Assembly: GCA_027485285.1 (NCBI GenBank) | Contig: JAIXRH010000097.1 | Location: 1 to 46,114 of the forward strand | Reading direction: 5' to 3' | Origin: Comamonadaceae bacterium | Lineage (GTDB): Bacteria; Pseudomonadota; Gammaproteobacteria; Burkholderiales; Burkholderiaceae_C | DNA length: 46,114 nt | Part shown: positions 1 through 35,019 of the stretch, one piece after another | How the letters are laid out: every line of letters begins with the position of its first letter | How positions within the stretch are numbered: the first letter of the stretch is position 1 | The notes under the pieces: model-generated | What the model was told of the DNA's origin: nothing | The model's input: the letters and a program-made list of their open reading frames with translations, nothing else | Database searches by the model: none | Position numbers and translations under genes: made by a program

Positions 1-1028
1 GTGAGCCATTTGCAGAAGTCGGCTTCGCTCAAATCTTTTTCAGGCACGCCCAATTTGTCGATGCGCACGCACTGAAAGTAGCTGCCTTCAGAGGGCAGCA
101 GTTCAAACTTGGTTTGGGCCAAGCCTTGGCGAAACAGGTCGCGCTTGGCGGCATAGAAGGCGGGCAACTGCAAGTAGGGCTGTGGGTCTTTCAGGAACGC
201 GGCCAAGCCGTGTTGCACAGGGGTGTTGACGGTGAACACGTTGAACTGGTGCACCTTGCGAAACTCCGCGCTGTAGGGGGCAGGTGCGGCCACGTAGCCA
301 ACTTTCCAGCCTGTGACGTGGAAGGTTTTGCCAAAGCTCGACACGATGAAGGCACGGTCGGCCAAGCCAGGAAAGCTGGATGCGCTGAGGTGCTTCAGCG
401 GGGCGTAGACCATGTGCTCGTAGACCTCGTCGCTGATGAGCACGATGTGGGTTGGGGCGAGCAGCGCTTGAAGCGTCAACATTTCTTCACGCGTCCATAC
501 GGTGGCGCTGGGGTTGTGCGGGCTGTTGACGATGATGGCGCGGGTCTTGGGCGTGATGGCCGCGGCGATTTTGTCAAAGTCGGGGCGGAAGGTGCCAGGC
601 GTGAGCGGCACGCGCACGGCCACGCCGCCCGCCATGTCGATGTTGGGGATGTAGCTGTCGTAGCAGGGCTCGAGCACGATGACCTCATCGCCTGCCCGCA
701 CCACCGCCAAGATGATGCTGAGGATGGCTTGCGTGGCGCCCGCCGTGATGGTGATTTCGCTGGTGGGGTCGTAGCGGTATTGGTAGAGCGACTCCATCTT
801 GTCGGCCACGGCTTCGCGCAGCGCGGGCACGCCGGCCATGGGCGGGTATTGGTTGAGGCCGTGGGTCATGGCGTCGTTGACGCAGGCCACCAGCTTGGGG
901 TCGCAATCAAAGTCGGGGAAGCCTTGGCCGAGGTTGACGGCGTTTTTTTCAGTGGCCAACGCAGACATGACCGTGAAGATGGTGGTGCCGATGTTGGGGA
1001 ACTTGGTGTCGAGGTGCGGTGTGGTCAT
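1..1028 (-). CDS. Pyridoxal-phosphate aminotransferase, class I/II (methionine/kynurenine type), 3' end missing
   Basis: The reading frame starts at the ATG at 1028-1026 and is still open at the window edge, giving 342 residues without the C-terminus. Visible class I aminotransferase signatures are NLGQGFPDF near residue 33, NSPHNPSATVW, and SSFGKTFHVTGWKVGY, in which Lys234 is the expected Schiff-base lysine. The order and spacing match the YbdL/kynurenine-oxoglutarate transaminase group, which acts on methionine, glutamine or aromatic amino acids in the cytoplasm. The usual Thr-Gly after NPHNP is Ser-Ala here. It starts 10 bp after the stop of the CysB-type regulator and is probably co-transcribed with it. 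The family is firm; the substrate is inferred. Confidence 0.88.
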   Translation of the reverse strand, partial: MTTPHLDTKFPNIGTTIFTVMSALATEKNAVNLGQGFPDFDCDPKLVACVNDAMTHGLNQYPPMAGVPALREAVADKMESLYQYRYDPTSEITITAGATQAILSIILAVVRAGDEVIVLEPCYDSYIPNIDMAGGVAVRVPLTPGTFRPDFDKIAAAITPKTRAIIVNSPHNPSATVWTREEMLTLQALLAPTHIVLISDEVYEHMVYAPLKHLSASSFPGLADRAFIVSSFGKTFHVTGWKVGYVAAPAPYSAEFRKVHQFNVFTVNTPVQHGLAAFLKDPQPYLQLPAFYAAKRDLFRQGLAQTKFELLPSEGSYFQCVRIDKLGVPEKDLSEADFCKWL

Positions 1029-1038
1029 GTTGCGAGGC

Positions 1039-1980
1039 TCACATGTTGAAGTCGGTGGGGTGGCCGTCGAGTGCTTTCATGATGAGGTTGCGGTCGAGGC
1101 GGTCGCTCAAGAGCGCGGCAAAGTCATACACAAAGTGGCGAATGTAGGCGCTGCGTTTGAACGCAATACGCGCGACGTTTTTGCCAAACAGCAGCGAGGC
1201 GGGGCGTGCCACGAGGTCGTCGTCCAAGCCGTCTTTCACAGCCATCTCGGCCACAATGCCCACGCCCAAACCTAAGCGCACATAGGTCTTGATCACGTCA
1301 GAATCAATCGCTTCGAGCGCAATGCGTGGTGTCAAGCCTTTGGCAGCAAAGGCTTTGTCAATGCGGGTGCGGCCAGTGAAGGAGGGGTGGTAGGTGATGA
1401 TGGGTTCAGCCGCCAAGTCTTCCAGCGTGATGCGCACTTTGCCCGCGAGCGGGTGTGACTTGGGGATGACCAACATGTGTTCCCACTCGTAGCAAGGCAG
1501 CGTCACCAGTTCGGGGTACTCAGACAGCGACTCGGTGGCAATGCCAATCTCGGCCACTTCGTCCATCACCATTTGCGCCACTTGTGCGGGCGCGCCTTGG
1601 TGCAGGCTGATGTTCACGTTGGGGTAAGCCTCGCGCAGCTTGGCCACGGGCACGGGCAGCACGTAGCGGGCTTGGGTGTGGGTGGTGGCGATGGACAAAG
1701 TGCCGCTGTCTTCGGCGCTGAACTGTTCGCCAATGCGCTTCAAGTTGCCCACTTCGCGCATGATCACCTCGATGCTGCGCAAGACGTGTTGACCTGGTTC
1801 GGTGACGCGCTTGAGGCGTTTGCCATGGCGCGAAAAGATTTCGATGCCCAGCTCTTCTTCCAGCTCAATGATGGCTTTGGACACGCCAGGCTGGGAGGTG
1901 TGCAGCGACTTGGCCACCTCGGTGAGGTTGAGGTTGCGGCGAACGGCTTCTTGGACGAAACGAAACTGATGCAGGTTCAT
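1039..1980 (-). CDS. cysB: CysB-type LysR transcriptional regulator
   Basis: This 313-aa protein has the N-terminal LysR helix-turn-helix (SLHTSQPGVSKAIIELEEEL) followed by an effector domain. It carries CysB/Cbl hallmarks: IATTHTQARYVLP, the TGRTRIDKAF segment and DSDVIKTYVRLGLGVGIV. CysB proteins activate cysteine and sulfonate assimilation genes and sense O-acetylserine or N-acetylserine. I chose the start at MNLHQFRF because CysB homologues begin there. An in-frame ATG nine codons upstream (2007) has an AAGG four bases before it and cannot be excluded. It lies 57 bp downstream of the epimerase gene on the same strand and 10 bp before the aminotransferase. CysB versus the paralogue Cbl is not resolved. 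Confidence 0.85.
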   Translation of the reverse strand: MNLHQFRFVQEAVRRNLNLTEVAKSLHTSQPGVSKAIIELEEELGIEIFSRHGKRLKRVTEPGQHVLRSIEVIMREVGNLKRIGEQFSAEDSGTLSIATTHTQARYVLPVPVAKLREAYPNVNISLHQGAPAQVAQMVMDEVAEIGIATESLSEYPELVTLPCYEWEHMLVIPKSHPLAGKVRITLEDLAAEPIITYHPSFTGRTRIDKAFAAKGLTPRIALEAIDSDVIKTYVRLGLGVGIVAEMAVKDGLDDDLVARPASLLFGKNVARIAFKRSAYIRHFVYDFAALLSDRLDRNLIMKALDGHPTDFNM

Positions 1981-2037
1981 GGTTTGGCGTTGGAATTTGC
2001 CGATCATTATGCCTTAGACATCTAACTAACCGATTCT

Positions 2038-3045
2038 TTATGCTTTGTAATAACCTCGGTACCACGCAACAAACCGAGCCATGCCCGTCTGCAAAGACGT
2101 GGCGGGCGTGAAGCCAATGCAGGCTTCCAGCTGGGTGGTGTCGGCAAAGGTGGCCGTCACGTCGCCGGGCTGGGCGGGCTTCATGATTTTGGTGGCTTCC
2201 ACGCCCACGGCTTGCTCGATGGTGTGCACAAAGTCCATGAGTTGAACGGGGTCCGAGTTGCCAATGTTCAGCACGCGGTAGGGTGCCCAGCTTTCAGCAC
2301 AGCCGGGTTCTTGGCCTTTGGCAAAGGTTTGTGGCACGGGTGGGCGGTCGAGCACACGCAGTGCGGATTCGACAATGTCGTCCACATACGTGAAGTCGCG
2401 CATTTGCTGCCCGTGGTTGTAAATCTCGATGGGCTGCCCTTTGAGGATGGCATCCGCAAATTTGAAAGGTGCCATGTCGGGGCGACCCCACGGTCCATAC
2501 ACCGTGAAAAAGCGCAAGCCCGTGGTGGGTGTGCCGTACAAGTGGCTGTAGGTGTGGGCCATCAGTTCGTTGGCGCGTTTGGTGGCGGCGTACAAGCTGA
2601 CGGGGTGGTCAACGGGGTCTGATTCTTTGAAGGGCAGTTTTTCGTTGCCGCCGTACACGCTGGAGCTGCTGGCGTAGGCCAGGTGCTTGACTTGCCAGTG
2701 GCGGGACCATTCCAGAATGTTCAAGAAAGCGACCAAGTTGGATTGCGCGTACACATGCGGATGGTCGATGGAGTAGCGCACGCCTGGCTGCGCGGCGAGG
2801 TGCAGAATGGTCTCGGGACGCCAAGTGCCTAGCTGGCTTTCAATGGCCGCCATGTTGACCAAGTCTTCTTCGATGAAGCGGAAATTGGGCTGACCCAGCA
2901 ACTGTTGCATGCGCGCGTGCTTGAGCTTGACGTCGTAATAGGGGGTGAAGTTGTCAATGCCAACCACCTCGTCGCCACGGGCCAAGAGTCGTTGGGCCGC
3001 ATGCATGCCGATGAAGCCGGCGCAACCAGTGAGGAGTACTTTCAT
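2038..3045 (-). CDS. NAD-dependent UDP-glucuronate 4-epimerase (LpsL/GAE type)
   Basis: This 335-aa extended short-chain dehydrogenase has the NAD-binding GCAGFIG motif at residues 7-13, a serine stretch followed by VYGG near residue 131, and the catalytic YAATK at 152-156. DNFTPYYDVKLK near residue 31 and RDFTYVDDIV resemble UDP-glucuronate 4-epimerases, which convert UDP-GlcA to UDP-GalA. The frame remains open further upstream to 3351, but MKVLLTGCAGFIG is the natural N-terminus. It is the last gene of the cluster that begins with UDP-glucose dehydrogenase, which would supply its substrate. A UDP-glucose 4-epimerase role is less likely from the overall motifs, but only an alignment would settle it. 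Confidence 0.85.
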   Translation of the reverse strand: MKVLLTGCAGFIGMHAAQRLLARGDEVVGIDNFTPYYDVKLKHARMQQLLGQPNFRFIEEDLVNMAAIESQLGTWRPETILHLAAQPGVRYSIDHPHVYAQSNLVAFLNILEWSRHWQVKHLAYASSSSVYGGNEKLPFKESDPVDHPVSLYAATKRANELMAHTYSHLYGTPTTGLRFFTVYGPWGRPDMAPFKFADAILKGQPIEIYNHGQQMRDFTYVDDIVESALRVLDRPPVPQTFAKGQEPGCAESWAPYRVLNIGNSDPVQLMDFVHTIEQAVGVEATKIMKPAQPGDVTATFADTTQLEACIGFTPATSLQTGMARFVAWYRGYYKA

Positions 3046-3077
3046 GCGGGCATTGTCCCGCAAAAAGTGAGGCTGAA

Positions 3078-3764
3078 TCAGGGCCGCGTCTTGTGCCTGC
3101 GTCTTGCGCGCCACTGCACATAGCTCCAGCGTGAGGCCCACGCGCAGCCCCACAGCAGCAAGCCGCCAAACAACACATCGCCTAAAAAGTGGCCGCCTTG
3201 GGCCATGCGCACCCAGCCCAACACCAAGCCTGCCGCCCAGCCCATGACGATCCAGCGGCGTCGCGTGCGTGTGTTGGCCAGTGCACCCACGGCAATCAGC
3301 ACAAAGCCCGTGCCCGCATGGCCACTCATGAAGGAGCAGTTGGTGTTGCATCCAGAGCTAGGCACCAAGGGCGAGGTGTAGGTTTCAGTGCCGCCCAAGG
3401 CCGTGATTTGGCTGGGCCGTGCACGGCCCCAGTTGTCTTTGAAACCCACATGCAAGATGAGCCACAAGCCCACGACCAAGCCGACGAGCAAGGCAACTGT
3501 TTTGCGGCGTGTGGCAGGGGTCAATCGGCCCCGTGCAAAAACCAGCATGAGCAAGCAGATCAACAGCATGGCGCGACCCACCCTGGGCACGCTCATGTGC
3601 CAAGTTTCCACCCAGGGCCATTGGTCAGCATCAAATCCAAGACCTGGGGTGTAAAACCAACGGGCCACGGTCAGATCCAAATCCGGCCAGACCAGATACA
3701 CCGCCAGGCAGATCAGGGTCAGGGCAAACCATGTTTGCACTTCGCGGCGTTGGGGACGTGTCAT
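3078..3764 (-). CDS. PAP2-family membrane phosphatase (possible lipid A phosphatase)
   Basis: This 228-aa membrane protein carries the three PAP2 phosphatase motifs: KDNWGRARP at residues 109-117, SGHAG at 147-151 and RMAQGGHFLGD at 186-196. The usual Pro before SGH is Met here (CSFMSGHAG). Hydrophobic stretches lie near residues 12-26, 63-76, 89-107, 152-163 and 173-185. Family members remove phosphate from lipid A (LpxE, LpxF), undecaprenyl pyrophosphate or phosphatidylglycerophosphate on the periplasmic side. Its ATG overlaps the stop of the upstream GT39 gene in an ATGA, indicating translational coupling, and the epimerase follows after 32 bp. A role on lipid A is inferred from the neighbours. 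Confidence 0.8.
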   Translation of the reverse strand: MTRPQRREVQTWFALTLICLAVYLVWPDLDLTVARWFYTPGLGFDADQWPWVETWHMSVPRVGRAMLLICLLMLVFARGRLTPATRRKTVALLVGLVVGLWLILHVGFKDNWGRARPSQITALGGTETYTSPLVPSSGCNTNCSFMSGHAGTGFVLIAVGALANTRTRRRWIVMGWAAGLVLGWVRMAQGGHFLGDVLFGGLLLWGCAWASRWSYVQWRARRRHKTRP

Positions 3765-5326
3765 GGCTTCGTGTGTTGGGTTTGCAGCAACCAAACTTGA
3801 AGTGTGATGCGGCCTGAATGCGCCTGTGCGAGTTGGCGTGCGTTGGGGTATCGGCTCAGCAGCTGGGGGTGTGGCTCTCCTGGGTTGATCCACACCACGG
3901 CAGGATCGGTGGCGTCGGCAGGCCAAGGCTGCTTCCACTCAAAGTGGTGATGCACGCTGCCATCCGTGTTCCAGGCATACAGCTTGGGCTCCAGCGTGCG
4001 AAGGCTGTAGGCGGCTTGCACCAAGGTGCTGCGGTCGCCGGTCAGCCAAGGCACATCTCGGTAGGGCTCTAGGGTGGGCTTGAGGGCTAGCAAAGAGGCA
4101 TCCCAGCCGCGCATGCGGCCCCAGATGTCCCACTTCGACTGGTTGGGCTGGGTTTGCACGCCCACCCATTGTTTGATGTCGCCACCCGTGGCGATGAAAC
4201 CACTCAGCACACAGCCTGCGACACAGGCCCAGACAAAGCGGGTGAGTGAAAGCTGCCACCGGTTGGCTGAGCAGGCCAACCACAAGCACACACCCAAGGC
4301 CATGGGCACCGACCAGTTGATGAGGGCTTTGGAGTTGAGGGCTTGAACCAAGCCCAACGCCAAGATAGGGCATGAAAAAGCCAAGGCGTAGACGCCAGGT
4401 GTCCAGAGGCGGGTCTGAGGGGTCTCGCGCTCGTTGGCGTGTGTCAAGCCGTCGGGGGCTGAGGTGGCTAAGTCATGGGCGCGTTGTTTGCGCCACACCC
4501 AAAAGCACAGCAGCCAGACGCTGGGGCCCAAAATCAACAATTGACCCAACGAAAACTCTAAGCCTGACGTCAACAGCCGACGCCAGCCGCCCGCGCCTTG
4601 GGCCACCGTCGAGCCCGTTTCTTGCACGGTGATTTCCAGCGTGTGTTGCGCTGTCGGCCATTGGTTGGCCACGTTCCAAAACAAGTGAGGCAGCAGCACC
4701 AACACGGCCACCGCGCTGGCAAGCAGGCCACCTAAAAAAATGCGGCGACGCTGCGAGGCGGGTGCCGCTGCCAACAGCCACAACGCTGAGATGCCAAGAG
4801 CCAAGGCGCTGTATTTTGACAACACACCTAGGCCCAAACTCAGTCCGCAAGCGACCCACCAAAAAGTGGCACGGTGGCCTGATGCGTGCGACGCTTGCCA
4901 AAGGGTGAGCATGCACAGCGCCCAAAACAAGGTGAGGGGTGCATCGGTGGTGACGCTCAAGCCCAACAAGCCTGACACCAAGGTGGCTGAAAACAAGCCG
5001 CCCGCATAGATGGCGGTGCGCATGCCACTGATGCGATAAGCCAACCAGCCCAGCACCCAGGCGCTGAGAATCCAACACGTCATGGCCAAGGCCTTCACGC
5101 CCAGGAGTGAATCGCCAAACAGGGCGGTGGAGGCCGTGATGAGTGCCACCAACACGGGCGGCTTTGAAAAGTAGCCCCATTGCAGATCGCGCGACCACAG
5201 CCAGTATTGGGCTTCGTCCACATGCAAACCCGCACCGCTGAGCGTGAACTCGAACATGCGCAAGCCCAACAAGGCAAACGACAGCAACGCGAGGATCGCA
5301 ATCGTAGAAATGGAGGGGCGGTTCAT
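3761..5326 (-). CDS. GT39-family polyprenyl-phosphate-sugar glycosyltransferase (ArnT/RgtA-like)
   Basis: This 521-aa polytopic protein has the acidic HVDEAQYWLW motif near residues 35-44, in the first periplasmic loop after TM1, followed by WGYFSKPPVLVALITAS. This is the pattern of GT39/PMT_2 transferases such as ArnT and RgtA, which move a sugar from a polyprenyl phosphate to a periplasmic acceptor, usually lipid A or core. Many hydrophobic segments follow, then a soluble C-terminal region. The start at 5326 (MNRPSIS) lies 22 bp after the stop of the other GT39 gene, although the frame stays open upstream to 5401. Its 3' end overlaps the PAP2 gene by 4 bp. Sugar and acceptor are inferred. 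Confidence 0.82.
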   Translation of the reverse strand: MNRPSISTIAILALLSFALLGLRMFEFTLSGAGLHVDEAQYWLWSRDLQWGYFSKPPVLVALITASTALFGDSLLGVKALAMTCWILSAWVLGWLAYRISGMRTAIYAGGLFSATLVSGLLGLSVTTDAPLTLFWALCMLTLWQASHASGHRATFWWVACGLSLGLGVLSKYSALALGISALWLLAAAPASQRRRIFLGGLLASAVAVLVLLPHLFWNVANQWPTAQHTLEITVQETGSTVAQGAGGWRRLLTSGLEFSLGQLLILGPSVWLLCFWVWRKQRAHDLATSAPDGLTHANERETPQTRLWTPGVYALAFSCPILALGLVQALNSKALINWSVPMALGVCLWLACSANRWQLSLTRFVWACVAGCVLSGFIATGGDIKQWVGVQTQPNQSKWDIWGRMRGWDASLLALKPTLEPYRDVPWLTGDRSTLVQAAYSLRTLEPKLYAWNTDGSVHHHFEWKQPWPADATDPAVVWINPGEPHPQLLSRYPNARQLAQAHSGRITLQVWLLQTQHTKP

Positions 5327-5348
5327 AGCGCAGCGATGGAAAAAGGGC

Positions 5349-6911
5349 TCAGAGCAAAGGCTTGAGCAGCAACAATCCGCGATGGCTGTGGGCGGTTGCA
5401 TAGCGGTTCATGTCTAGCCCCTCCACGCGGTCGTGGCGCACGATGACCCAGTCGGTCGCTGCGGGGGGCTGCTGCGTGGTGGGGGTGCCCAAGTAAAAAG
5501 CAAAGCTGGGTTGGTGCATGCGCCACTGCACGATGCGCGCGTCGGGATGGTGTTGGCGAGCCCAAGTAGCTACCTCTTGAAATGGCGCTTGCAACACTTG
5601 GCCCAACCAAGGAATGACAACGCCCACCCACAGCATACTGACCAGCCAAACGCAGGCCATGAGCCGCGCCCACGCGTCACCGCGCCAAATGAGGGCCAGC
5701 CACACACCTGCCGCAGCCACACAAGCGGCAGCGACATGAACCCAAAAACCATTGGGCGCACTTGCGAGCAAGGGTTGCACCCAGGAGTCGGTGACTGTGG
5801 TGGCGCCCCACGCTGCAATGAAAGGGACGGCAAAAGCAAGCGCGCAAGACAGCGCGGCAGAGACCCACAGCGCAGCCTGCCAAGCCACAGATGCGGGATG
5901 CTTGACAGACTGAGCCACGATCAACAAGACCAAGGGGGCCAAGCCATACAGCATGTAGTGCGGCAGTTTGGTGCCAGAGAGCGAAAAAAAGCCCAGCACA
6001 AACAACACCCAAATCCACAAAAAGCGCTGCAAAGGCTGAGCCCACTGAGTGATGACACTGCCAATCAAACGCACACACCAAGGGGACCACGGCAGCAACA
6101 ACACAGGCAAGACCACCAGGTAGTAAAGCGGGTTGCCACCGTGCCCCTCAAGAGTTCCCGTGAATCTTTGCACGTTGTGTTTGAGAAAGAAGCCCTCGAC
6201 AAAAGCCATCTCGTGACGCTGCAGAGCATAGAGGTACCAAGGCGCAGCAATGACGATCAAAAGTAGCCAGCCTTTGGGCTCCCAAAGTGCTTGCCAAGCG
6301 GTACGGCCACGGTTGGTGATCAACGACCAAATGAGCAAGGTGACGCCTGGAATCAGCAGCGCCACTGGGCCTTTGGTCAGCAGTCCCAGAGCACACCACA
6401 CATAAGCCCAACGCAAAGCAGTGCGAGAGCCTGTGTAGGCAAAGTTCCACAAGCACAAACCCGTGCCAATCAGCAAGGCATTGAGCATGCCGTCAGCGGT
6501 GGCGGCGCGGCCAATGGCCAACAGACCCAAGCTTGAGCCCAGCATGAACGCAGCGCGTTGCCCAGCGGCTTCGCCCCATTGCTGGGCAGCAAAACGCCAC
6601 ACGGCAAACGTGGCAGCTAGCACCGCCAGAGCGGAAGGCAGGCGAGCCACCCAGTCATGCGGGCCGAGCACGGCCATCAGAGCCGCTTGGCACCAATAAA
6701 TGAAGATGGGTTTGTCAAAGCGATCTGCGCCGTTGAGGGTGGTGTGTCCCCAATCGCCAGAGGCCAGCATTTCGCGTGAAGCTTCAGCAAACGCCCCTTC
6801 GTCCACATCAAACAGAGGCGCACCTGCCAAGCGAACCAAATACAGGCTCAGCAGGGCGAGAACGACCCAGGCGGCGCTGGTCCAGCGAAGGGGGTTGCAG
6901 GAATGGATCAT
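5349..6911 (-). CDS. Second GT39-family glycosyltransferase (ArnT/RgtA-like)
   Basis: This 520-aa multi-pass membrane protein has LFDVDEGAFAEASREML at residues 34-50, the characteristic acidic loop of GT39 enzymes, and then FDKPIFIYW. The DEG..AEA pattern is closer to ArnT (DETRYAEI-type) than that of its neighbour at 3761-5326, so the two are probably not recent duplicates and may serve different acceptor positions. It would act at the periplasmic face using a polyprenyl-phosphate sugar. Its start codon overlaps the stop of the GT2 gene (ATGA at 6911-6908). Without its own motif-matched homologue the sugar cannot be read from sequence; galacturonic acid is inferred from the cluster. Confidence 0.83.
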   Translation of the reverse strand: MIHSCNPLRWTSAAWVVLALLSLYLVRLAGAPLFDVDEGAFAEASREMLASGDWGHTTLNGADRFDKPIFIYWCQAALMAVLGPHDWVARLPSALAVLAATFAVWRFAAQQWGEAAGQRAAFMLGSSLGLLAIGRAATADGMLNALLIGTGLCLWNFAYTGSRTALRWAYVWCALGLLTKGPVALLIPGVTLLIWSLITNRGRTAWQALWEPKGWLLLIVIAAPWYLYALQRHEMAFVEGFFLKHNVQRFTGTLEGHGGNPLYYLVVLPVLLLPWSPWCVRLIGSVITQWAQPLQRFLWIWVLFVLGFFSLSGTKLPHYMLYGLAPLVLLIVAQSVKHPASVAWQAALWVSAALSCALAFAVPFIAAWGATTVTDSWVQPLLASAPNGFWVHVAAACVAAAGVWLALIWRGDAWARLMACVWLVSMLWVGVVIPWLGQVLQAPFQEVATWARQHHPDARIVQWRMHQPSFAFYLGTPTTQQPPAATDWVIVRHDRVEGLDMNRYATAHSHRGLLLLKPLL

Positions 6912-7921
6912 GCGGCTGCGGTATGCCAGCCCTCAGTGGGTTCGGGCGTGTTGTTGTGCATCACGTGGTAAGAGCGTGCGCCACTTTGGTCAAAGTAGCT
7001 GCGCATCAAGATTTCGGCCAACACGCCCGTGGTCAGCATTTGCACGCCAGCCAGCAAAGCAAAAAAGCCCAGCCAAAGCAATGGGCGGCCGCCCACTTGT
7101 TCGCCAAACAATTTCAAAAGCCCCAGGTAGGCCAAGACCAAGCTGCCCACTGCCGAAAAGATCAGGCCAATGCCGCCAAAGAAATGGCCTGGGCGCGTGC
7201 CAAAGCGCAAGAAGAAGTACATGGCCAACAAGTCAACGATCACACGAAACGTGCGGGAGATGCCGTATTTGGACTCGCCCAACAGGCGTGCGTGGTGACG
7301 CACAGGTTCTTCGGCCATGCGGCGCGGCGAGGTGACCGTGGCCAACCAAGCTGGAATGAAACGGTGCATTTCGCCGTACAACCGCACTTTGCGAAGCACT
7401 TCGCCGCGAAAGGCTTTGAGGCTGCAACCCAAGTCTTTGAAGTCAAGGCCTGAGACTTTGCGAATCAGGGTGTTGGCAATCAGGGAAGGGAACTTGCGCA
7501 AAATGAAGCCATCTTGTCGCTTTTGACGCCAACCGGCCACCATGTCAAGGTCTTCATTCAGCAAACGCGCGACCAGCTTGGGGATGTCGCGTGGGTCATT
7601 TTGCAAATCGCCGTCCATGGTGACGATCACATCACCCCGCGCAGCGTCAATGCCAGCTTGCATGGCGGCGGTTTGTTTGAAGTTGCGGCGCAGCTCGACC
7701 ACGCGGATGTGTGGGCCAATTTCTTTGGCGCGTTTGAGCAAGGCGACCACCGTGTTGTCTGAGCTGCCATCGTCGACCAAAATCAATTCCCAGGGCATGG
7801 GGTAGTGGCTCAACGCCTCTTGCACCGCGTCAATTTGCAAAGGTGCGTTTTCTTGTTCGTTGTACATGGGCACAACCACCGACAAGGTGTGCTGCGGCAT
7901 GGGGGCAATGGCGTCTGACAT
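6908..7921 (-). CDS. GT2 polyprenyl-phosphate sugar synthase (ArnC/RgtE/GtrB-like)
   Basis: This 337-aa protein starts with a GT-A fold: SVVVPMYNEQENAPL at residues 14-28, LILVDDGSSDNT at 47-58 and the metal-binding TMDGDLQNDP at 101-110 with DGD at 103-105. Two C-terminal membrane segments lie at about 242-264 and 278-300. This is the architecture of ArnC, RgtE, GtrB and dolichyl-phosphate-mannose synthase-like enzymes, which transfer a sugar from a nucleotide donor to undecaprenyl or dodecaprenyl phosphate on the cytoplasmic side. It lies between the putative flippase and the GT39 genes, which would use its product. The donor may be UDP-GalA or UDP-GlcA (inference). Confidence 0.88.
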   Translation of the reverse strand: MSDAIAPMPQHTLSVVVPMYNEQENAPLQIDAVQEALSHYPMPWELILVDDGSSDNTVVALLKRAKEIGPHIRVVELRRNFKQTAAMQAGIDAARGDVIVTMDGDLQNDPRDIPKLVARLLNEDLDMVAGWRQKRQDGFILRKFPSLIANTLIRKVSGLDFKDLGCSLKAFRGEVLRKVRLYGEMHRFIPAWLATVTSPRRMAEEPVRHHARLLGESKYGISRTFRVIVDLLAMYFFLRFGTRPGHFFGGIGLIFSAVGSLVLAYLGLLKLFGEQVGGRPLLWLGFFALLAGVQMLTTGVLAEILMRSYFDQSGARSYHVMHNNTPEPTEGWHTAAA

Positions 7922-7933
7922 GATGTGAAAACC

Positions 7934-8863
7934 CTATTGAGAAAATGTGACTGGCGCCCCGTCTAGGCGATGCAGCGGTTTTTGGCTCCAGCCCAACATG
8001 CGAGCCAAGGTGGCCGATCCCACCGTGACGGCCAGTGCCATCAAATGCACAGCCAAAGCCGTGGCGGCGATGTCGGTCCAAGGCAAAGAAGCTGTCCATT
8101 GGATGCCAAAAATGACACCGCCTTCATAGGGCCCAAACCCTGCTGGGGGTTGCAGAGGAAGTGTAGCGGCGAGCTCACCGCCCACAGAGCCGTGCAAGGC
8201 GGTGCGGAAATTGATGGGGAGCATGACCCAGAGCGGCCAAGCAATGGCGCAGGCTTTGACAATCCAATTGGAAATGGCGTAAATCCAGCTTTCCCAAGCA
8301 GGCGGTGGGGCTTGGAAGGGCTCGGTGCCTTCTTTGCGCGACATGCGGTACATCAGCCAGGTCCAGCTCAAAGGCAAGAGCCACATGGCCAGCACCATCA
8401 TGACCACCGCGAGTGCCACACTGATTTCAATAGAAAAAGGGGCAAACAAAGCAAGGGACAAACCGCCCAACACGGCCATGTCTTGCACACGCAACCTGAG
8501 CAAACTGATGCTGGCTTGGCGGATAGAAATGCCCCCTTGTCGGTGCAACACCCACACATAAATGGCTTCGCCGCCACGCATGGGCACCAGCACCACCCAG
8601 GCGCTGTGGCGCACCATCAGGCCCCAGGCCTCGCGCCAACCCATGTTGAGGGTGTCGCGCCATTCCATGCGCACGCGACCCGCCCGAAGCAGATGACTGC
8701 CGGCCATGCCAAGCGCGCTGACCAGCCACACATACAGGGGCACGCGCTGCCAAGCCGCCACGGCCACCGGCCAATCGACAGCTTGCAGCATCCACGCCAT
8801 GATGGCGATGGCAGCTAAGGTGACGACGGTGGACGCCCAGAGTTTTTTGGAAGATTTGTTCAT
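7934..8863 (-). CDS. UPF0104/LPG-synthase-TM family integral membrane protein, putative lipid-sugar flippase
   Basis: This 309-aa polytopic membrane protein resembles the transmembrane domain family of lysylphosphatidylglycerol synthase (PF03706/UPF0104). It has an early TM (residues 10-26), a Gly/Arg-rich cytoplasmic region (HLLRAGRVRMEW), VLVPMRGGEAIYVWVLHRQG and the late family signature PPAGFGPYEGG near residue 240. Stand-alone members have no catalytic synthase domain and are usually suspected of moving lipid-linked molecules. Its start overlaps the stop of the upstream PAP2 gene by ATGA, and the GT2 gene follows 12 bp later. This position suggests it flips the polyprenyl-phosphate sugar across the inner membrane. 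That role is inference only. Confidence 0.72.
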   Translation of the reverse strand: MNKSSKKLWASTVVTLAAIAIMAWMLQAVDWPVAVAAWQRVPLYVWLVSALGMAGSHLLRAGRVRMEWRDTLNMGWREAWGLMVRHSAWVVLVPMRGGEAIYVWVLHRQGGISIRQASISLLRLRVQDMAVLGGLSLALFAPFSIEISVALAVVMMVLAMWLLPLSWTWLMYRMSRKEGTEPFQAPPPAWESWIYAISNWIVKACAIAWPLWVMLPINFRTALHGSVGGELAATLPLQPPAGFGPYEGGVIFGIQWTASLPWTDIAATALAVHLMALAVTVGSATLARMLGWSQKPLHRLDGAPVTFSQ

Positions 8864-9663
8864 GCGGCTGGCTCAGAAGTTCGGAGCGCCCACCACGCTT
8901 GCACGCGCCACAGCAGGCTAGTCACGGCCAGGACGCCCAGCCCCCACTGCCAAACCAAGGCCAACGGCATGCCTTCGTCAAACGTGAAGGCCGCCCATGC
9001 GCCCACACCCTCGACCCACACAGGCAGCCATGGAAAAGCAAAGTCGTTTCTGCGCGGCCAAGGGAAAGGCAAGCGCCAAGCCACCCAGCCCACCATCAGC
9101 CCCAGCCCGCCGCCCACCAGCACATCGGCAGGCCAATGCGCACCCACGGCGATGCGCGATGCCGCGATGCCCAAGGCAATGGCCCATGCCAGCCAGGCCA
9201 TCCAACGCGGGTAGCCATGCGCGCGAATCAAGCAGACCCACAGCGTGCCCATGCACAGGGCGGCGAGGGCGTGGCCCGAAGGCATGGAGTGGTGGTTGAT
9301 GACTGGGTTGCCAATGAAATGAATCAGGTCCACGTCCAACACTGCCCCCGGTCTTGGCAGGCTCAGCCAAGGCTTGAGTGTGTGCGTCACGATGCCCCCC
9401 AGCACGAAGCCGGTGAGCACAACGCGGGCCCCGAGGTCGCCTCGACCCATGATGCTGACCAAGATGAGCACCGCCCAGCCCAAGCCAGACACGGTGAGGC
9501 AAGACCAAAACGTGTCGGACAAGCGCTGTGCTGCGTGGTTGAGCCCCAGCATCAGGTTTGGATGCCCATCTGAGAAATGGGTCAAGAGGCCCGCCCCAAT
9601 CAGCAAAGCAGCCAGCGCGAACCAAACACGTGCGTCAGGCGGCGGCGAAAAAGTGGGGCGCAT
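8860..9663 (-). CDS. PAP2-family membrane phosphatase (second copy in the cluster)
   Basis: This 267-aa membrane protein has canonical PAP2 motifs: KPWLSLPRP at residues 97-105, MPSGH at 127-131 and SRIAVGAHWPAD at 169-180. Unlike the PAP2 protein at 3078-3764 it keeps the classical Pro-Ser-Gly-His. Several hydrophobic helices surround the motifs and a further C-terminal pair follows. It is the second gene after ugd (26-bp gap) and overlaps the UPF0104 gene by 4 bp. Plausible roles are undecaprenyl pyrophosphate recycling or lipid A dephosphorylation. The sequence does not distinguish these. Confidence 0.82.
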   Translation of the reverse strand: MRPTFSPPPDARVWFALAALLIGAGLLTHFSDGHPNLMLGLNHAAQRLSDTFWSCLTVSGLGWAVLILVSIMGRGDLGARVVLTGFVLGGIVTHTLKPWLSLPRPGAVLDVDLIHFIGNPVINHHSMPSGHALAALCMGTLWVCLIRAHGYPRWMAWLAWAIALGIAASRIAVGAHWPADVLVGGGLGLMVGWVAWRLPFPWPRRNDFAFPWLPVWVEGVGAWAAFTFDEGMPLALVWQWGLGVLAVTSLLWRVQAWWALRTSEPAA

Positions 9664-9689
9664 GCGGGCGTTGAGGCGGCTGCGCTGAA

Positions 9690-10856
9690 TCAGTCGCTGC
9701 CAAACAAATCGCGGGTGTAGACCTTGGCTGCCACATCACTCAAATCAGGTGTTTGACGGTTGGCCACGATCACATCGCATTGCGACTTGAACGATGCCAG
9801 GTCGTGCGTGACCTCAGATTTGAAAAACTCTTGCTCTGCCAACAGAGGCTCATACACGATGACGCGCACACCCTTGGCTTTGAGACGCTTCATCACACCT
9901 TGGATGCTGCTGGCGCGGAAGTTGTCGCTGCCCGCTTTCATGATGAGGCGGAAGATACCCACGGTGTTGGGCTTGCGTCGCAATATGTCGTCGGCAATGA
10001 AGTCTTTGCGTGTGCTGTTGGCGCTCACGATGGCGCCAATCAACGTTTGCGGCACATTGTTGTAGTTGGCCAGCAACTGCTTGGTGTCTTTGGGCAGGCA
10101 ATAACCGCCGTAGCCAAAGCTGGGGTTGTTGTAATGGCTGCCAATGCGGGGGTCGAGGCACACGCCGTCAATGATTTGGCGGGTGTCTAGGTTGTGCGAA
10201 GCGGCGTAGCTGTCGAGCTCGTTGAAATACGCCACGCGCAAGGCAAGGTAGGTGTTGGCAAACAACTTGATGGCTTCCGCCTCGGTGCTGCCTGTAAAAA
10301 GCACTTCCACATCGGGCTTGAGCGAAGCTTCTTGTAACAAACCCGCAAACACTTGGGCACGTTCAGACACTTCACCCACCACGATTCGGCTGGGGTAGAG
10401 GTTGTCGTGCAAGGCTTTGCCTTCGCGCAAAAACTCGGGGCTGAAGAAAACTTGGTCTGTGCCCAAGTCGGCGCGAATTTTTTCAGTGAAGCCCACGGGA
10501 ATGGTGGACTTGATGACCATCACGGCCTTGGGGGCCATGCGCTTGACATCGGCAATCACCGACTCGACCGAGCGGGTGTTGAAGTAATTGGTTTGCGGGT
10601 CGTAATCGGTGGGCGTGGCGATGATCACGTAGTCAGCGCCTGAGTAGGCGTCGAGCGGATCAAGCGTGGCACGCAAATTCAGTGTTTTTTCAGCCAGGTA
10701 GGCTTCAATGTCGCGGTCATCGATGGGGGAGTGGCGCGCATTGATGGCTTTGACGCGCTCATCGACGATGTCGAGAGCCACCACTTCGTGGCGTTGTGCA
10801 AGTAAAACTGCGTTAGAAAGACCGACGTAACCCGTGCCTGCAATGGCGATTTTCAT
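9690..10856 (-). CDS. ugd: UDP-glucose 6-dehydrogenase
   Basis: This 388-aa protein oxidises UDP-glucose to UDP-glucuronate with two NAD+. It begins with the dinucleotide-binding [14 protein letters not shown], contains [11 protein letters not shown] and [14 protein letters not shown], and has the catalytic-cysteine motif [14 protein letters not shown] with Cys253. The length equals the E. coli Ugd subgroup (about 388 residues), shorter than the 430-450-residue class. It is the first gene of the cluster running to 2038 and supplies UDP-GlcA for the terminal epimerase. An imperfect palindrome at 10874-10892 lies 17 bp upstream of its start codon and could regulate the cluster. No strong Shine-Dalgarno sequence is visible. 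Confidence 0.95.
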
Positions 10857-10873
10857 AAGTTATCACGCAATTA

Positions 10874-10892
10874 TTAGGATCGTTGATTCTAA
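10874..10892 (-). promoter_or_regulatory. Imperfect palindrome upstream of ugd, possible operator/promoter
   Basis: On the plus strand the site reads TTAGGATC-GTT-GATTCTAA, two 8-bp arms with one mismatch. On the gene strand it contains TAGAAT, a reasonable -10 hexamer, but the region 15-18 bp upstream offers only weak -35 matches (TTGTCT at 15 bp). It lies between the cbiX stop (10905) and the ugd start. It may be a regulator site or simply an AT-rich chance palindrome. Confidence 0.3.
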
Positions 10893-10904
10893 CATTTGCC
10901 CCCG

Positions 10905-11273
10905 TCAGACAAGGCGCTCATCCAGGGCGATCTCGGCGAGTAAATCCAAGAGCTGGCTCTGTTCGCCCACCGCTGGCTGGCAAGTGATGTCCACTGAGGG
11001 ATGGTCAATTTTCAAGGCGCTGATCAACTCAGGCAGGTCTTCACGCGCATGGCGGCCGACGCCCAAAAACATGGGGACCACACACAAGCTGGTAGCGCCT
11101 TCTGCCACCAAAGCGCTGGCGACATGCGGCAAGTCTGGCTCGGTTAACTCTAAGTAGGCACATCGCACCACTGTTTGGGGGGAGCGCCGAACGATGCGTT
11201 CGGCGACAGATTGAATGGGCTTGTGCCACAAGGGGTCACGCGAGCCGTGGGCAAACAAAATGATGGCGTGCAT
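10905..11273 (-). CDS. Short CbiX/SirB-type sirohydrochlorin chelatase-like protein
   Basis: This 122-aa protein matches the single-domain CbiX/SirB chelatase family. ILFAHGSRDPLW at residues 5-16 holds the metal-binding His9, and VVPMFLGVGRHAREDLP at 65-81 holds the second conserved histidine. Family members insert Co2+ or Fe2+ into sirohydrochlorin for cobalamin or siroheme synthesis. The start at 11273 is supported by AAGG six bases upstream, although the frame is open further to 11588 inside lptG. It begins 7 bp after the lptG stop and is probably in the same transcript. A link to LPS export is not obvious; it may simply ride in the operon. Confidence 0.8.
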   Translation of the reverse strand: MHAIILFAHGSRDPLWHKPIQSVAERIVRRSPQTVVRCAYLELTEPDLPHVASALVAEGATSLCVVPMFLGVGRHAREDLPELISALKIDHPSVDITCQPAVGEQSQLLDLLAEIALDERLV

Positions 11274-11280
11274 AAAAACC

Positions 11281-12381
11281 TTATTGACGAATAACCAGCC
11301 AGCCGAAAGCGGCCAGTGAGGCGAGGGTGTAGAGCAAGCCTGGGGCTGCGGCAGCAAACCACGGCAGCCAGTTGTTGATGTTGCCCAAATAGCTGAAAAC
11401 GTTGTTGAGCAGGAAAAAGCTGATGCCCGCCAACACACCGCCGAACACATGGCTGGCAATGTTGCCGCTGCGCGAATGCAAGTAGGCAAAGGGCAGGGCG
11501 AGCACCACCATGACCAAGCAGCTGAGCGGGTAAAACACTTTTTTCCAAAATTCAATTTCAAAACGCTGCGTGGCTTGCCCGTTGGCACTCAAGTGCTTGA
11601 TGTATTGGAACAAGTCCACCGTCCCCATTCGCCCGGGCTTGAGAATGGCAACGGCGATCATTTCGCTCGTGATCTCGCTGGGCCAGCGAAGCGTGTCTTG
11701 CTGCGTGATTTTCAGTCGCTGCGAACTGTCATTGCCTTGCAGCGCCTGCCGTTCAGCTTGACGCAAAACCCACGCACCGTCTTCAATCTGAGCCCCTGAG
11801 GCTTTGCTCAAGGCAACCCATTCGCCAGCAGCGTTGAATTCAAAAATCCGAATGTCTTGTGGTGAACCATCGGCGGACAGGCGGTTGATGTTGAGAAATA
11901 CTTTTTGCTCCGGTTGGCTTTCACGCAGCCAAGCGCCCGTGTTGCCCACCTTGATTTGTGTGCCCAAGTATTTGGACTTGAGCAGTTGTGCATAGCGATC
12001 GCTCATGGGGGCCAGGTAGTCGCCCACGGCAAATGTGATGAGCACAAAAGTCAGGCCCAAGCCCAGCAGGTTGCGAAGCGCCATCAGCGGCGTCAGTCCA
12101 CTGGTGCGCAAAATGGTGAATTCTGAGCTTTTGGCCAAACGCGACATCACAAAAATTGTGCCGATCAAGACCGTGATGGGGAGCAGTTCATACAAGTGGC
12201 TGGGAACAGACAGCAGCACAAAGCCAAAGACATGCCTGAGTTGGTAGAGGTTGTTGTTGCCGCCGGCATTGGGCAACTCATCAATGAAGTCAAAGAAAAA
12301 GAAGAGCGCTAAAAAACACAGCGTGACAAAGGTCACGGCGACCCAAATTTCGTAGTGAATGAGTTTGCGAAGGGTTTTCAT
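11281..12381 (-). CDS. lptG: LPS export ABC transporter permease LptG
   Basis: This 366-aa protein is one of the two YjgP/YjgQ-family permeases that, with LptB2, extract LPS from the inner membrane and feed it to the LptC-LptA bridge. It starts MKTLRKLIHYEIW with TM1 around residues 12-34, further helices around 55-80 and 99-122, a periplasmic jellyroll of about 140 residues, and three C-terminal helices from about residue 275 on. LSRLAKSSEFTILRTSGLT-like coupling-helix sequence (SRLAKSSEFTILRTSG) is typical of LptG. It follows lptF after 13 bp on the same strand, the usual lptF-lptG order. Confidence 0.93.
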   Translation of the reverse strand: MKTLRKLIHYEIWVAVTFVTLCFLALFFFFDFIDELPNAGGNNNLYQLRHVFGFVLLSVPSHLYELLPITVLIGTIFVMSRLAKSSEFTILRTSGLTPLMALRNLLGLGLTFVLITFAVGDYLAPMSDRYAQLLKSKYLGTQIKVGNTGAWLRESQPEQKVFLNINRLSADGSPQDIRIFEFNAAGEWVALSKASGAQIEDGAWVLRQAERQALQGNDSSQRLKITQQDTLRWPSEITSEMIAVAILKPGRMGTVDLFQYIKHLSANGQATQRFEIEFWKKVFYPLSCLVMVVLALPFAYLHSRSGNIASHVFGGVLAGISFFLLNNVFSYLGNINNWLPWFAAAAPGLLYTLASLAAFGWLVIRQ

Positions 12382-12394
12382 AAGTCGAGGGGCC

Positions 12395-13483
12395 CTACGC
12401 GCCAGAACGCCCTAAGAGTTGACGCCAATTCCAGTTGTAATGACGCGCCGTGAGCCATGTGTAAGCCAAGACGAAAACCCCGCCGTGCAGGGCAATGAAA
12501 AAGGGCAGCAACTGAGCCTTGCCCGATCCCACCCAACTTTGACCCAAGTTGATCAGGTTGAAATAGACCACAAAAATCAGCAGGGCCTGAGCCAAATTGC
12601 CACCGCGTCCCACGCGTGGGTTGGCGCTGGTGATGGCCAAGGCAATGATGATGACGTTGAATGCTGAAAACGCCACACCCAAGCGCCATCCCAACTCACC
12701 GAGGTTGCCGGGGGTTGGGTTTTGCATCAGTTCAAGGCTAGAGATGGTTTTGAGTGGCGACTTGTCTTCTAACTTGGCGGATGGGTTGAGCTGCGTGGTG
12801 TAGCTTTTGAACTGGGTGACTTTCAATTCGGGCTTGCCAATGGTTTGTTCAACGCGTTGGCCGTTTTCTAGGACTAAATACTGTTCATCCTCCAGAATTT
12901 CAATGTGACCCGCTTTGGCCGATGTCATGGCTTGTTTGTTGTGGTCCGTCGATGAAATAAAAACGTTTTTGCCTTCTTTGTTGTCAAGGCTGTCTTTGTC
13001 AATGAAAAACACCCGCAAGCCACTGGCCGATTCTTGGAATTGACCAGGCGCCACGCGCTCCAAGTCGCCGCGTCGCTCGTAGCGGTTTTTGAGCTCTCCA
13101 ATCTGTTGGTGAGACCAAGGCCAGATCAACAACATCAGCACAAACACGCTCAGCAACATGGGCCAAGCAAAATTGAGCATGGGGGTGGCCAAAGTGCGAA
13201 GCCCTTTGCCACTGACAAGCCAAATCACCATTTCGCTCTCTAGGTACATCCTCGACAAGGTGCCGACGGCCGCAATGAACAAACTCATGGTCAACAAAAT
13301 CGGCAGTTGCCCCAGCATGGTGAAGCCAAGAATTAAGCTGACTTCGGCGGGGTTGACGCTGCCGATCGATGCTTGGCCCAGCGTACGGATCAGCATCATG
13401 GTCATCACAATGGTGACCAGCACGACCAGCGTGGCACCAAAACTGCGGGCCAGCTCTTTGCGAATGGAGGAATGGAATAACAT
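12395..13483 (-). CDS. lptF: LPS export ABC transporter permease LptF
   Basis: This 362-aa permease is the LptG partner in the LptB2FG complex. It has the N-terminal MLFHSSIRKELARSF, TM helices near residues 18-36, 55-75 and 100-122, the coupling-helix sequence MYLESEMVIWLVSGKG, a periplasmic domain, and three C-terminal helices from about residue 268. It is divergent from pepA with only 24 bp between start codons, an arrangement also found in E. coli. Promoters for both genes therefore probably lie inside the opposite coding region. No clear Shine-Dalgarno sequence is seen upstream. Confidence 0.93.
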   Translation of the reverse strand: MLFHSSIRKELARSFGATLVVLVTIVMTMMLIRTLGQASIGSVNPAEVSLILGFTMLGQLPILLTMSLFIAAVGTLSRMYLESEMVIWLVSGKGLRTLATPMLNFAWPMLLSVFVLMLLIWPWSHQQIGELKNRYERRGDLERVAPGQFQESASGLRVFFIDKDSLDNKEGKNVFISSTDHNKQAMTSAKAGHIEILEDEQYLVLENGQRVEQTIGKPELKVTQFKSYTTQLNPSAKLEDKSPLKTISSLELMQNPTPGNLGELGWRLGVAFSAFNVIIIALAITSANPRVGRGGNLAQALLIFVVYFNLINLGQSWVGSGKAQLLPFFIALHGGVFVLAYTWLTARHYNWNWRQLLGRSGA

Positions 13484-13507
13484 CAGCGACAGAGGAAAAC
13501 CGCAATT

Positions 13508-14959
13508 ATGAACTTCGAGCTCAAGACCCTAGATTTACACGCTGCAGCCACGCATAAAACCGATGCGCTGATTATCTTGGTATCTGCCAAGGACAAGCCC
13601 GTCAAAAGCGTTTTGGCACAACTTATTTCAGATGCCCGCAAAAGCGGCGATTTGGACGAGTCGCCCGCCAAGTTGTTGAGCGTGTGGCACCCGCAAGGCG
13701 TGAGCGCCCCTCGTGTGTTGTTGGTCTCGAGTGGCGATGGCAGCGCCCGCGTGGTGCGCCAAGCCGTCACCGCCGCTGTGGCCTTGCTCAAGGCGACGAA
13801 GCCGACGCACATCACGGTGTGTTTGGCTGATGCCAGCGAACACCGCTTGCAAGCTGCCGCCCAAGCCGTGTCTGACACCAGCTATGTGTACACCGCCACC
13901 AAGCCCTCGGCGAAAGCGTCTGAGTTGAAACGCGTGGTGTTGGCTTTGCCAACAGCTGAGAAGACCAAAGCCGCTCAACACGAATTTGCCCTTGCTCGCG
14001 CCCAAGTGGCTGGCGTGGCTTTGGCCAAAGAGTGGGGTAATCGCCCTGCCAACCACGCAACGCCCTCGCATTTGGCCCAAGTGGCCAAGGGATTGGGTAA
14101 GAAGGCAGGCATCCATTGCCAAGTCTTGGGGCCCAAAGAGATTGAAAAACTAGGGATGGGCTCATTCGCCGCTGTGGCGCGTGGCTCCGTGGAGCCATTG
14201 CGCTTCATCGTGTTGCACTACACCGGCGCGGCCAAAACAGTGGCCCCTACCGTATTGGTGGGCAAGGGCATCACCTTTGACACGGGCGGTATTTCTCTCA
14301 AGCCAGGCCCGGCGATGGATGAAATGAAGTTTGACATGTGCGGCGCCGCCAGCGTGCTGGGCACCTTTGAGGCGTTGGCGCAGTTGAAACCCGCCATCAA
14401 CGTGGTGGGCCTGATTCCCACCTGCGAAAACATGCCAGACGCATCGGCCTTGAAGCCCGGTGACGTGATCACCAGCATGAGTGGCCAAACCATTGAGGTG
14501 CTCAACACCGACGCAGAAGGCCGCCTCATTTTATGTGACGCCTTGACTTACGCCACGCGCTTCAAGCCCCGTGCGGTGATTGACATTGCCACGCTGACGG
14601 GCGCTTGCGTGATTTCTCTGGGCCATGTGCGCAGTGGCTTGTTCTCGACTTCAGACGACTTGGCCCAAGATTTGTTTGCCGCTGGCGAAGCCGCGTTGGA
14701 TCCTTGCTGGCGCTTGCCTTTGGACGACGAGTACGCCGAAGGCCTCAAGTCCAACTTTGCTGACGTAGCCAACGTGGCGGGGCGCGATGGCGGTGCCATC
14801 ACGGCTGCTAAGTTCTTGCAACGGTTTGCCAAAGACTACCCATGGGCGCATTTGGACATTGCGGGCGCGGCTTGGAAGAGCGGCGCTGCCAAAGGTGCGA
14901 CTGGACGTCCTGTGGGCTTGCTGTTGCACTATTTGTTGGGCACTGTCAAAGCGAAATGA
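13508..14959 (+). CDS. pepA: Leucyl aminopeptidase (M17, cytosol aminopeptidase)
   Basis: This 483-aa dinuclear-metal enzyme removes N-terminal amino acids from peptides and in E. coli also acts as a DNA-binding cofactor for Xer recombination. The C-terminal catalytic domain shows VGKGITFDTGGISLKP, the metal ligands, and the family signature NTDAEGRL at residues 333-340. The N-terminal macro-like domain is less conserved. A GAGGA lies about ten bases before the ATG. Its stop codon overlaps the holC start (ATGA), so the two are coupled as pepA-holC, a common proteobacterial arrangement. Confidence 0.95.
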   Translation: MNFELKTLDLHAAATHKTDALIILVSAKDKPVKSVLAQLISDARKSGDLDESPAKLLSVWHPQGVSAPRVLLVSSGDGSARVVRQAVTAAVALLKATKPTHITVCLADASEHRLQAAAQAVSDTSYVYTATKPSAKASELKRVVLALPTAEKTKAAQHEFALARAQVAGVALAKEWGNRPANHATPSHLAQVAKGLGKKAGIHCQVLGPKEIEKLGMGSFAAVARGSVEPLRFIVLHYTGAAKTVAPTVLVGKGITFDTGGISLKPGPAMDEMKFDMCGAASVLGTFEALAQLKPAINVVGLIPTCENMPDASALKPGDVITSMSGQTIEVLNTDAEGRLILCDALTYATRFKPRAVIDIATLTGACVISLGHVRSGLFSTSDDLAQDLFAAGEAALDPCWRLPLDDEYAEGLKSNFADVANVAGRDGGAITAAKFLQRFAKDYPWAHLDIAGAAWKSGAAKGATGRPVGLLLHYLLGTVKAK

Positions 14960-31896: not shown

Positions 31897-31917
31897 CCCA
31901 TCCATCAAAGAGCTCAC

Positions 31918-34900: not shown

Positions 34901-35019
34901 TGAGTTTGGGCACCTTGCTCACCATCTTTGTGGTGCCCACGATGTACACCTTGTTGGCCCGCAAGTCTGTGCCGGGGGCGATCACCATCCGTCATGAGGA
35001 CGCGGACGTAGGCGCTTGA
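31918..35019 (+). CDS. RND-family efflux pump permease (HAE1/MexB-like)
   Basis: This 1033-aa inner-membrane transporter uses proton flow to expel hydrophobic or amphiphilic compounds. It begins MQLPEISIRRPVFATVLSLL and has the 12-TM, two-repeat layout with large periplasmic loops after TM1 and TM7. The proton-relay aspartates are in LAIGLVVDDAIVVLENIYRH (TM4), and the TM10 lysine is in GLITKHGILIVEFAN. It follows the adaptor gene after 21 bp. No TolC-like gene is in the window, so the outer-membrane partner must be elsewhere. Substrates cannot be deduced. Its last codons form one arm of a hairpin (35008-35026). Confidence 0.95.
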   Translation: MQLPEISIRRPVFATVLSLLIVLVGVVSFTRLNVREYPKIDNPVVTVETKYTGASSAVVESQVTKVLEDSLSGIEGVDVITSISRQEQSQITVNFVLSRDADSAAADVRDKVSRVRQRLPQGIDEPVIAKVEADAFPVIWLSFSADTLNVLQLTDYANRIAKPMLQTAPGASDVRVFGERKYAMRIWLDPDRLAAYKLTTQDVEDALRRSNVEVPAGRIESKLREFNVSTSTDLQTPQEFRNVVVKSVNGIQVRIGDVARVEQGPQAERTATRLNGKDAITLGVIRNATANPLDLSAAVRSMIPKIKENLPPGVEIEIANDNSVFIDRSIKAVFQTIVEAAILVALVIFVFLRTVRASFIPLVTIPVCLIGTFALMALFGFTINTLTMLALVLAIGLVVDDAIVVLENIYRHIEDGMSPFHAAIRGAKEVGFAVVAMTMTLAAVYAPLAFTPGRTGKLFTEFALALAGSVVVSGFVALTLTPMMCSIMLKHNHNPSWFDRTMERQLQRMSNAYGRLLQWTLTPGRVFGRSISRRWWVVAVMVLAGLGTWTLLKSTKSELAPLEDRGVILTVVNGPDGATLDYTTRYTLAIEKMAEKYTEFDRIFTVVGNPTVAQGNVFYRARPWEERTKSTLEIAREMTPMVSGLPGVTAFPITPPSLGQPFRDRPLNFVILTSDSYQNLAQVVRSFQEEIAKNPGIVSVDTDLRLNKPEISMEVDRERAADMGVPVDQIARAVETMMGGRQVTRYKREGDQYDVVVQTASTGRDTPDDIERVFVRGKGDVMIPLSALVKIKEVVVPRELNHFSQRRSASITANLAPTYSLGEAITFMNATAQKVLKPGYSTDLNGTSREFVKSSGSLVIVFALALLFIFLVLAAQFESFIDPLVIMLSVPLSMVGALLALQFSGGTLNVFSQIGLITLVGLITKHGILIVEFANQLREEGMELFEAVTKSATLRLRPILMTTGAMVLGAIPLALASGAGAESRKQIGWVIVGGMSLGTLLTIFVVPTMYTLLARKSVPGAITIRHEDADVGA

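Follow-up and report, generated by a model that had tools for sequence, protein, structure and literature searches.

Which sugar a bacterium of the Comamonadaceae might place on its lipid A, and by what route, is the question raised by a run of eight genes on contig JAIXRH010000097.1 (assembly GCA_027485285.1). The window analyzed here is this whole contig of 46,114 nucleotides, from a source genome of 2.35 Mb that is 98% complete. The run (window 2038-10856) lies entirely on the minus strand, all of its open reading frames are intact with ATG starts, and its order from 5' to 3' is ugd, PAP2-a, UPF0104, GT2, GT39-a, GT39-b, PAP2-b and a gene for a UDP-uronate 4-epimerase. The operon probably makes polyprenyl-phosphate galacturonic acid (GalA) and exchanges phosphate on lipid A for this sugar. 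A co-directional run of this kind had been described from the letters of the DNA alone (hereafter the sequence-only reading) and is indeed present, with every member named by Pfam above cut-off (UDPG_MGDP_dh_N 109 bits, PAP2 74 and 68, Glycos_transf_2 112, PMT_2 62 and 71, Epimerase 177; the LPG_synthase_TM match of UPF0104 was barely above its cut-off with 33.9 versus 33.4 bits). That the genes are mostly joined by ATGA overlaps was overstated, as 4-base ATGA overlaps were found at three of the seven junctions (spacings along the run: 26, -4, 12, -4, 22, -4 and 32 bases).

Predicted synthesis of the nucleotide sugar

The first and the last gene of the run encode the enzymes for UDP-GalA. Ugd scored 658 bits against NCBIfam PRK15057, which is under the cut-off of 757. 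The nearest PDB relatives of the epimerase were 5u4q (431 bits), 6zl6 (163) and MoeE5 (142), all of which we take to be UDP-glucuronic acid (UDP-GlcA) 4-epimerases, while GalE-type enzymes reached at most 135 bits. The protein carries YxxxK at residues 152-156 and RFFTVYGPWGRPDMA at 178-192. Arg188 within the latter (RPDMA stretch) aligns with Arg185 of 6zl6 and is invariant in 12/12 aligned cassette epimerases; presumably it has the role that this Arg plays in UDP-GlcA 4-epimerases. This Arg and the closest solved structures both point to a UDP-GlcA 4-epimerase, so that by homology Ugd and a matching epimerase are encoded in place. Ugd would convert UDP-glucose to UDP-GlcA and the epimerase would convert UDP-GlcA to UDP-GalA; the case by homology for this supply is strong, and the corresponding proposal of the sequence-only reading is supported by this homology.

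Two surveys covered 200 genomes of the family and the best 80 loci with titled public records out of 505 relatives. Many of these loci are ended by contig edges, both surveys overlap since several loci are the same contigs, and all p values ignore kinship. Some GT39-a match was obtained in 93 of the 200 genomes and an orthologue in 15 (E ≤3.9e-103; next match 4e-39). The epimerase (E ≤1e-70; 84 genomes in total) was present in 15/15 genomes with a GT39-a orthologue versus 69/185 others (Fisher p 1e-6), and in 9/9 versus 69/185 after exclusion of six genomes with a cluster-borne epimerase (p 2e-4). Moreover, 14 of the 80 loci have it no more than 10 kb from GT39-a, in several arrangements, where about 0.16 would be expected (rough binomial with 4.3 Mb genomes, kinship ignored). 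Because the epimerase is linked in this way, we infer that GalA is the sugar loaded by GT2.

Proposed loading and flipping of the polyprenyl carrier

The best named model for GT2 was ArnC (NCBIfam, 177.6 bits, cut-off 529). Among its best matches in a plasmid collection were proteins of Sinorhizobium (51-52% identity), of Indioceanicola and Leisingera (51% over about three quarters of the length) and of Azospirillum (44%), with ArnC at about 35%. GT2 is thus closer to the Sinorhizobium GT2 (51%) than to ArnC (35%), in a comparison set that holds no sequence verified as RgtE. In the tree that had been suggested as a check, cassette GT2 proteins grouped with the Sinorhizobium GT2 to the exclusion of ArnC (support 0.90, but only 0.44 for the exact sister relation). 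In S. meliloti Ak57 the 51%-identical GT2 has a PF03706 gene in divergent orientation on one side and a GT39 on the other. A GT2 homologue was found in 15/15 GT39-a genomes; three of these homologues are distant, and two of the three adjoin ugd and an epimerase. By homology the evidence is strong that the predicted reaction type of GT2 is the synthesis of a polyprenyl-phosphate sugar; the enzyme would load GalA onto undecaprenyl phosphate on the cytoplasmic side of the membrane.

As an observation apart, members of a second clade of GT2, which share about 48% identity with the window protein, lie beside ugd, an epimerase and another PF03706 gene at L146 4845-10490 and L147 5488-11489. Both genomes (G015 and G151) contain PAP2-a and GT39-a elsewhere without GT2, and L146 adds a GT39 at the GT2 site.

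UPF0104 (PF03706) adjoins GT2 in 59/59 loci that hold both. Since neither the UPF0104 profile (below E 0.05) nor the GT39-b profile (E 0.01) had a PDB sequence match, structure models were used for both, and UPF0104 was found to have the fold of the lipid flippase domain of MprF. Because of this fold and the adjacency to GT2, UPF0104 is a candidate flippase that would turn polyprenyl-phosphate GalA from the cytoplasmic to the periplasmic face. To our knowledge, the flipping step of the rhizobial GalA pathway has no assigned protein. GtrA was considered as flippase and rejected, as no GtrA was found in the own genome.

Two phosphatases and two transferases

PAP2-a carries the motif K97x6RP / PSGH 128-131 / SRx5Hx3D 169-180. 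Its profile matched best in the PDB to LpxE 6ebu, which we take to be the Aquifex enzyme (85.8 bits over 169 of 239 profile positions), whereas YodM, PgpB and acid phosphatases reached at most 44 bits. For PAP2-b, NCBIfam LpxF was the best family (116.6 bits for the window protein), and LpxF also matched 16/16 aligned members. The PAP2-b motif (K109x6RP / SGH 147-149 / Rx5Hx3D 186-196) is intact, with the catalytic residues K109, R116, P117, S147-G148-H149, R186, H192 and D196 invariant in 16/16 sequences. A PAP2-b homologue was present in 8/15 GT39-a genomes versus 7/185 others (p 6e-7).

Apart from the two GT39 genes of the window, the own genome gave no PMT_2 match. GT39-a belongs to the ArnT family: ArnT is its nearest named NCBIfam model, and it matches ArnT and not the Sinorhizobium GT39 beside the related GT2. 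GT39-b is distantly ArnT-like by sequence (NCBIfam, 43 bits). Its profile ranked the Sinorhizobium GT39 (55 bits) over E. coli ArnT (31 bits), while BLAST with the single protein gave the reverse ranking (ArnT 46 versus Sinorhizobium GT39 42 bits).

In 12 of the 80 loci PAP2-a and GT39-a occur alone (three of the 12 on stretches shorter than 9 kb), and GT39-b and PAP2-b are adjacent in 13/13 loci holding both. In genome G033, the pair PAP2-a and GT39-a and the block UPF0104-GT2-GT39-b-PAP2-b occupy separate contigs. The modules are separable. Because of this gene pairing the transferases were assigned to positions: the LpxE-like PAP2-a would remove the 1-phosphate from lipid A, to be replaced by GalA through GT39-a, while the LpxF-like PAP2-b would remove the 4'-phosphate, with GT39-b as the transferase at this end. 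LpxK is present in the own genome, therefore phosphorylated lipid A is expected. The end product would be lipid A in which the charge of uronic acid replaces that of phosphate. Homology and co-occurrence support the GalA part of the pathway put forward in the sequence-only reading; that lipid A is the acceptor, and at which positions GalA is attached, is what we infer. That UPF0104/PF03706 is a dedicated polyprenyl-phosphate GalA flippase and that the operon yields phosphate-free, doubly galacturonylated lipid A in Betaproteobacteria via two matched phosphatase-transferase pairs is, taken as a whole, possible rather than probable.

Distribution among relatives

All eight genes, arranged as in the window, were found in five of the 80 loci (three of them Malikia) and in a genome of the same genus (G225, locus L150); the run is therefore not a chance assembly, and the proposed neighborhood survey did recover its order in Malikia and other relatives. 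Malikia spinosa and M. granosa carry the complete set, and Aquabacterium commune has the PAP2-a/GT39-a pair. Parts of the run recur in Burkholderiales and Rhodocyclales. Record titles of the 80 loci include Malikia, Aquabacterium, Ramlibacter, Polaromonas, Limnohabitans, Zoogloea and Azoarcus. Among the 80 loci, GT2 is present in 66, PAP2-a in 64, UPF0104 in 59, GT39-b in 41, PAP2-b in 28, the epimerase in 14 and ugd in eight. Among 84 genomes of the genus, counting the own one, three others have a GT39-a with 85-94% identity (a fragment in one case) and six have one with 42-43%; thus, the operon is patchy.

Single loci differ in composition. The Malikia-like L034 / L051 lacks PAP2-b and retains the remaining seven genes in order; its public record bears the title Chitinophaga pinensis, which looks wrong. 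L112 7745-12208 (Noviherbaspirillum massiliense) has the order epimerase, GT2, GT39-a, PAP2-a, no UPF0104 by profile, and lptFG homologues about 5 kb on. About 0.9 kb separates GT2 and GT39-a at L077 8058-11425 (Azohydromonas caseinilytica), and in the matching L006 the two genes enclose a weak match to PAP2-a (55.8 bits), and no UPF0104 was found.

Weighing of alternative readings

Several results weigh against the exchange of lipid A phosphate for GalA. GT2 lies far under the equivalog cut-off of NCBIfam ArnC, and PAP2-b far under that of LpxF (400 bits). No PAP2-a match was found in 16 of the 80 loci and GT2 stands without UPF0104 in seven of 66, some of both ended by contig edges, and L045 shows GT39-a alone. 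In A. lipoferum GT2 follows a PF03706 gene, but the annotation shows no GT39 close by, and the Leisingera relative of GT2 stands among polysaccharide genes. A strict pairing of GT39-b with PAP2-b had to be dropped, as 28/41 GT39-b loci lack PAP2-b and 15/28 PAP2-b loci lack GT39-b. The 28 loci, together with the distant ArnT likeness of GT39-b, the missing PDB match of its profile and the preference of this profile for the Sinorhizobium GT39, favor a reading with the same polyprenyl-phosphate GalA donor, in which one or both GT39 enzymes decorate the inner core of lipopolysaccharide (LPS), as rhizobial RgtA-C do, and the PAP2 enzymes act elsewhere. The constant adjacency of GT39-b to the LpxF-like gene where both occur and the loci with just GT39-a and the LpxE-like gene speak against it, and we consider an inner-core acceptor unlikely. 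Slightly less doubtful is that PAP2-a is a general undecaprenyl-diphosphate or phosphatidylglycerophosphate phosphatase supplying carrier and that PAP2-b alone edits lipid A, which is compatible with either acceptor. PAP2-a members indeed match the undecaprenyl-diphosphate phosphatase models of NCBIfam (SepP 14/14, PRK11837 12/14) above LpxE (2/14, weak), another point against the lipid A assignment, and Aquifex LpxE accepts undecaprenyl-diphosphate and phosphatidylglycerophosphate-type substrates too. However, the PDB profile favors LpxE, and 12 loci keep just PAP2-a with GT39-a, although the GT39 reaction releases the carrier as a monophosphate and therefore needs no such phosphatase.

The sugar might also be another than GalA (GlcA, glucosamine as in Bordetella Lgm, or 4-amino-4-deoxy-L-arabinose, Ara4N), with the epimerase serving capsule or O-antigen. 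The epimerase is outside the examined stretch in 66/80 loci, which likewise counts against GalA, and the nearest named models of GT2 and GT39-a are ArnC and ArnT; against this stand the epimerase in every genome with a GT39-a orthologue, the lack of a deacetylase or formyltransferase among the eight run genes (Pfam), and the results for the Arn enzymes. In the own genome, no ArnA was found over cut-off (best of four matches 133.6/777 bits, profile positions 4-319 of 649) and no good ArnB candidate among six short DegT/DnrJ/EryC1 matches (22-33 bits), of which the single window match is a class I/II aminotransferase. Ara4N was rejected on these grounds, and the absence of ArnA and ArnB from the run, noted in the sequence-only reading, extends to the own genome in this form: no ArnA over cut-off, only weak DegT matches for ArnB. 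A different sugar is thus quite improbable. Least probable of all is a general surface-sugar operon whose GT39 enzymes act on proteins or on an exopolysaccharide. In favor of the proposed exchange on lipid A, no EptA was found in the own genome.

Genomic context

Table 1. Coordinates of the run and of the neighboring LPS export genes in the window
Feature	Position	Strand	Evidence
ugd, UDP-glucose 6-dehydrogenase, 388 aa, first in run	9690..10856	-	Pfam, NCBIfam PRK15057
PAP2-a, LpxE-like membrane phosphatase, 267 aa	8860..9663	-	Pfam, motif, PDB profile
UPF0104 / PF03706 membrane protein, 309 aa, candidate polyprenyl-phosphate sugar flippase	7934..8863	-	
GT2, ArnC/RgtE-like polyprenyl-phosphate glycosyltransferase, 337 aa	6908..7921	-	Pfam, NCBIfam, tree
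GT39-a, ArnT-family transferase, 520 aa, proposed PAP2-a partner	5349..6911	-	Pfam, NCBIfam
GT39-b, ArnT-fold transferase, 521 aa, proposed PAP2-b partner	3761..5326	-	
PAP2-b, LpxF-like membrane phosphatase, 228 aa	3078..3764	-	NCBIfam LpxF, motif
UDP-glucuronate 4-epimerase, 335 aa	2038..3045	-	Pfam, PDB matches, residues
lptG 12381-11281 and lptF 13483-12395, LPS export permeases, context only	11281..13483	-	Pfam LptF_LptG 209 and 147 bits

Upstream of the run, lptG and lptF share its orientation, as does the CbiX gene that is the single gene in between; a LysR regulator gene follows downstream. Homologues of lptFG were found in the examined stretch of three of the 80 loci (L047, L070, L112) and at L150. 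This proximity to LPS export genes counts in favor of the proposed exchange. No Rfam match was obtained for window 1-14000, and a simple scan of 10700-11400 gave no sigma-70-like promoter. A mobile or viral origin was rejected, as a single-protein query found no close GT39-a relative among viral contigs and the G+C content is 0.594 in the run versus 0.577 in the remainder of the window. Searching the plasmid collection with PAP2-a gave only four weak records. Two records named as plasmids, CP090106.1 (3.7 Mb) and NZ_CP134663.1 (4.9 Mb) (hits H34 and H48), look like chromosomes. Unrelated to the run, window 30355-35019 contains HlyD-type and AcrB-type genes in tandem, a resistance-nodulation-division efflux pair.

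Discussion

The run would work like the rhizobial Rgt/LpxE/LpxF system and is built differently. The rhizobial system (Rhizobium leguminosarum, Mesorhizobium loti) comprises RgtA-F / RgtE with LpxE and LpxF. Compared by description, the run shares with it a polyprenyl-phosphate sugar GT2, ArnT-family GT39 enzymes and predicted lipid A phosphatases, whereas here a single operon unites donor synthesis and a candidate flippase with two phosphatases and two transferases. With the Arn pathway the run has an ArnC-like GT2 and an ArnT-like GT39 in common. It differs from it in the 4-epimerase and the phosphatases, in ArnA and ArnB as described above, and in UPF0104 in the place of ArnE/ArnF, with no search aimed at ArnD, ArnE or ArnF. 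Unlike MprF, UPF0104 stands alone without a synthase domain and accompanies a polyprenyl-phosphate GT2. Bordetella LgmA-D and Francisella FlmF/FlmK, likewise compared by description, also combine a GT2 with an ArnT-like GT39 on lipid A; these use hexosamines and a deacetylase, a gene that Pfam did not detect in the run. Lipid A of Aquifex and Caulobacter bears GalA at both ends, the same product as predicted here, and the best PDB match of PAP2-a, LpxE 6ebu, is presumably the Aquifex enzyme.

GalA-modified lipid A is known from Alphaproteobacteria and Aquifex. If the proposed exchange is true, it would extend this modification to environmental Betaproteobacteria, it would provide a named candidate for the carrier flippase, and it would be a natural case of phosphatase and transferase genes moving as position-specific pairs.

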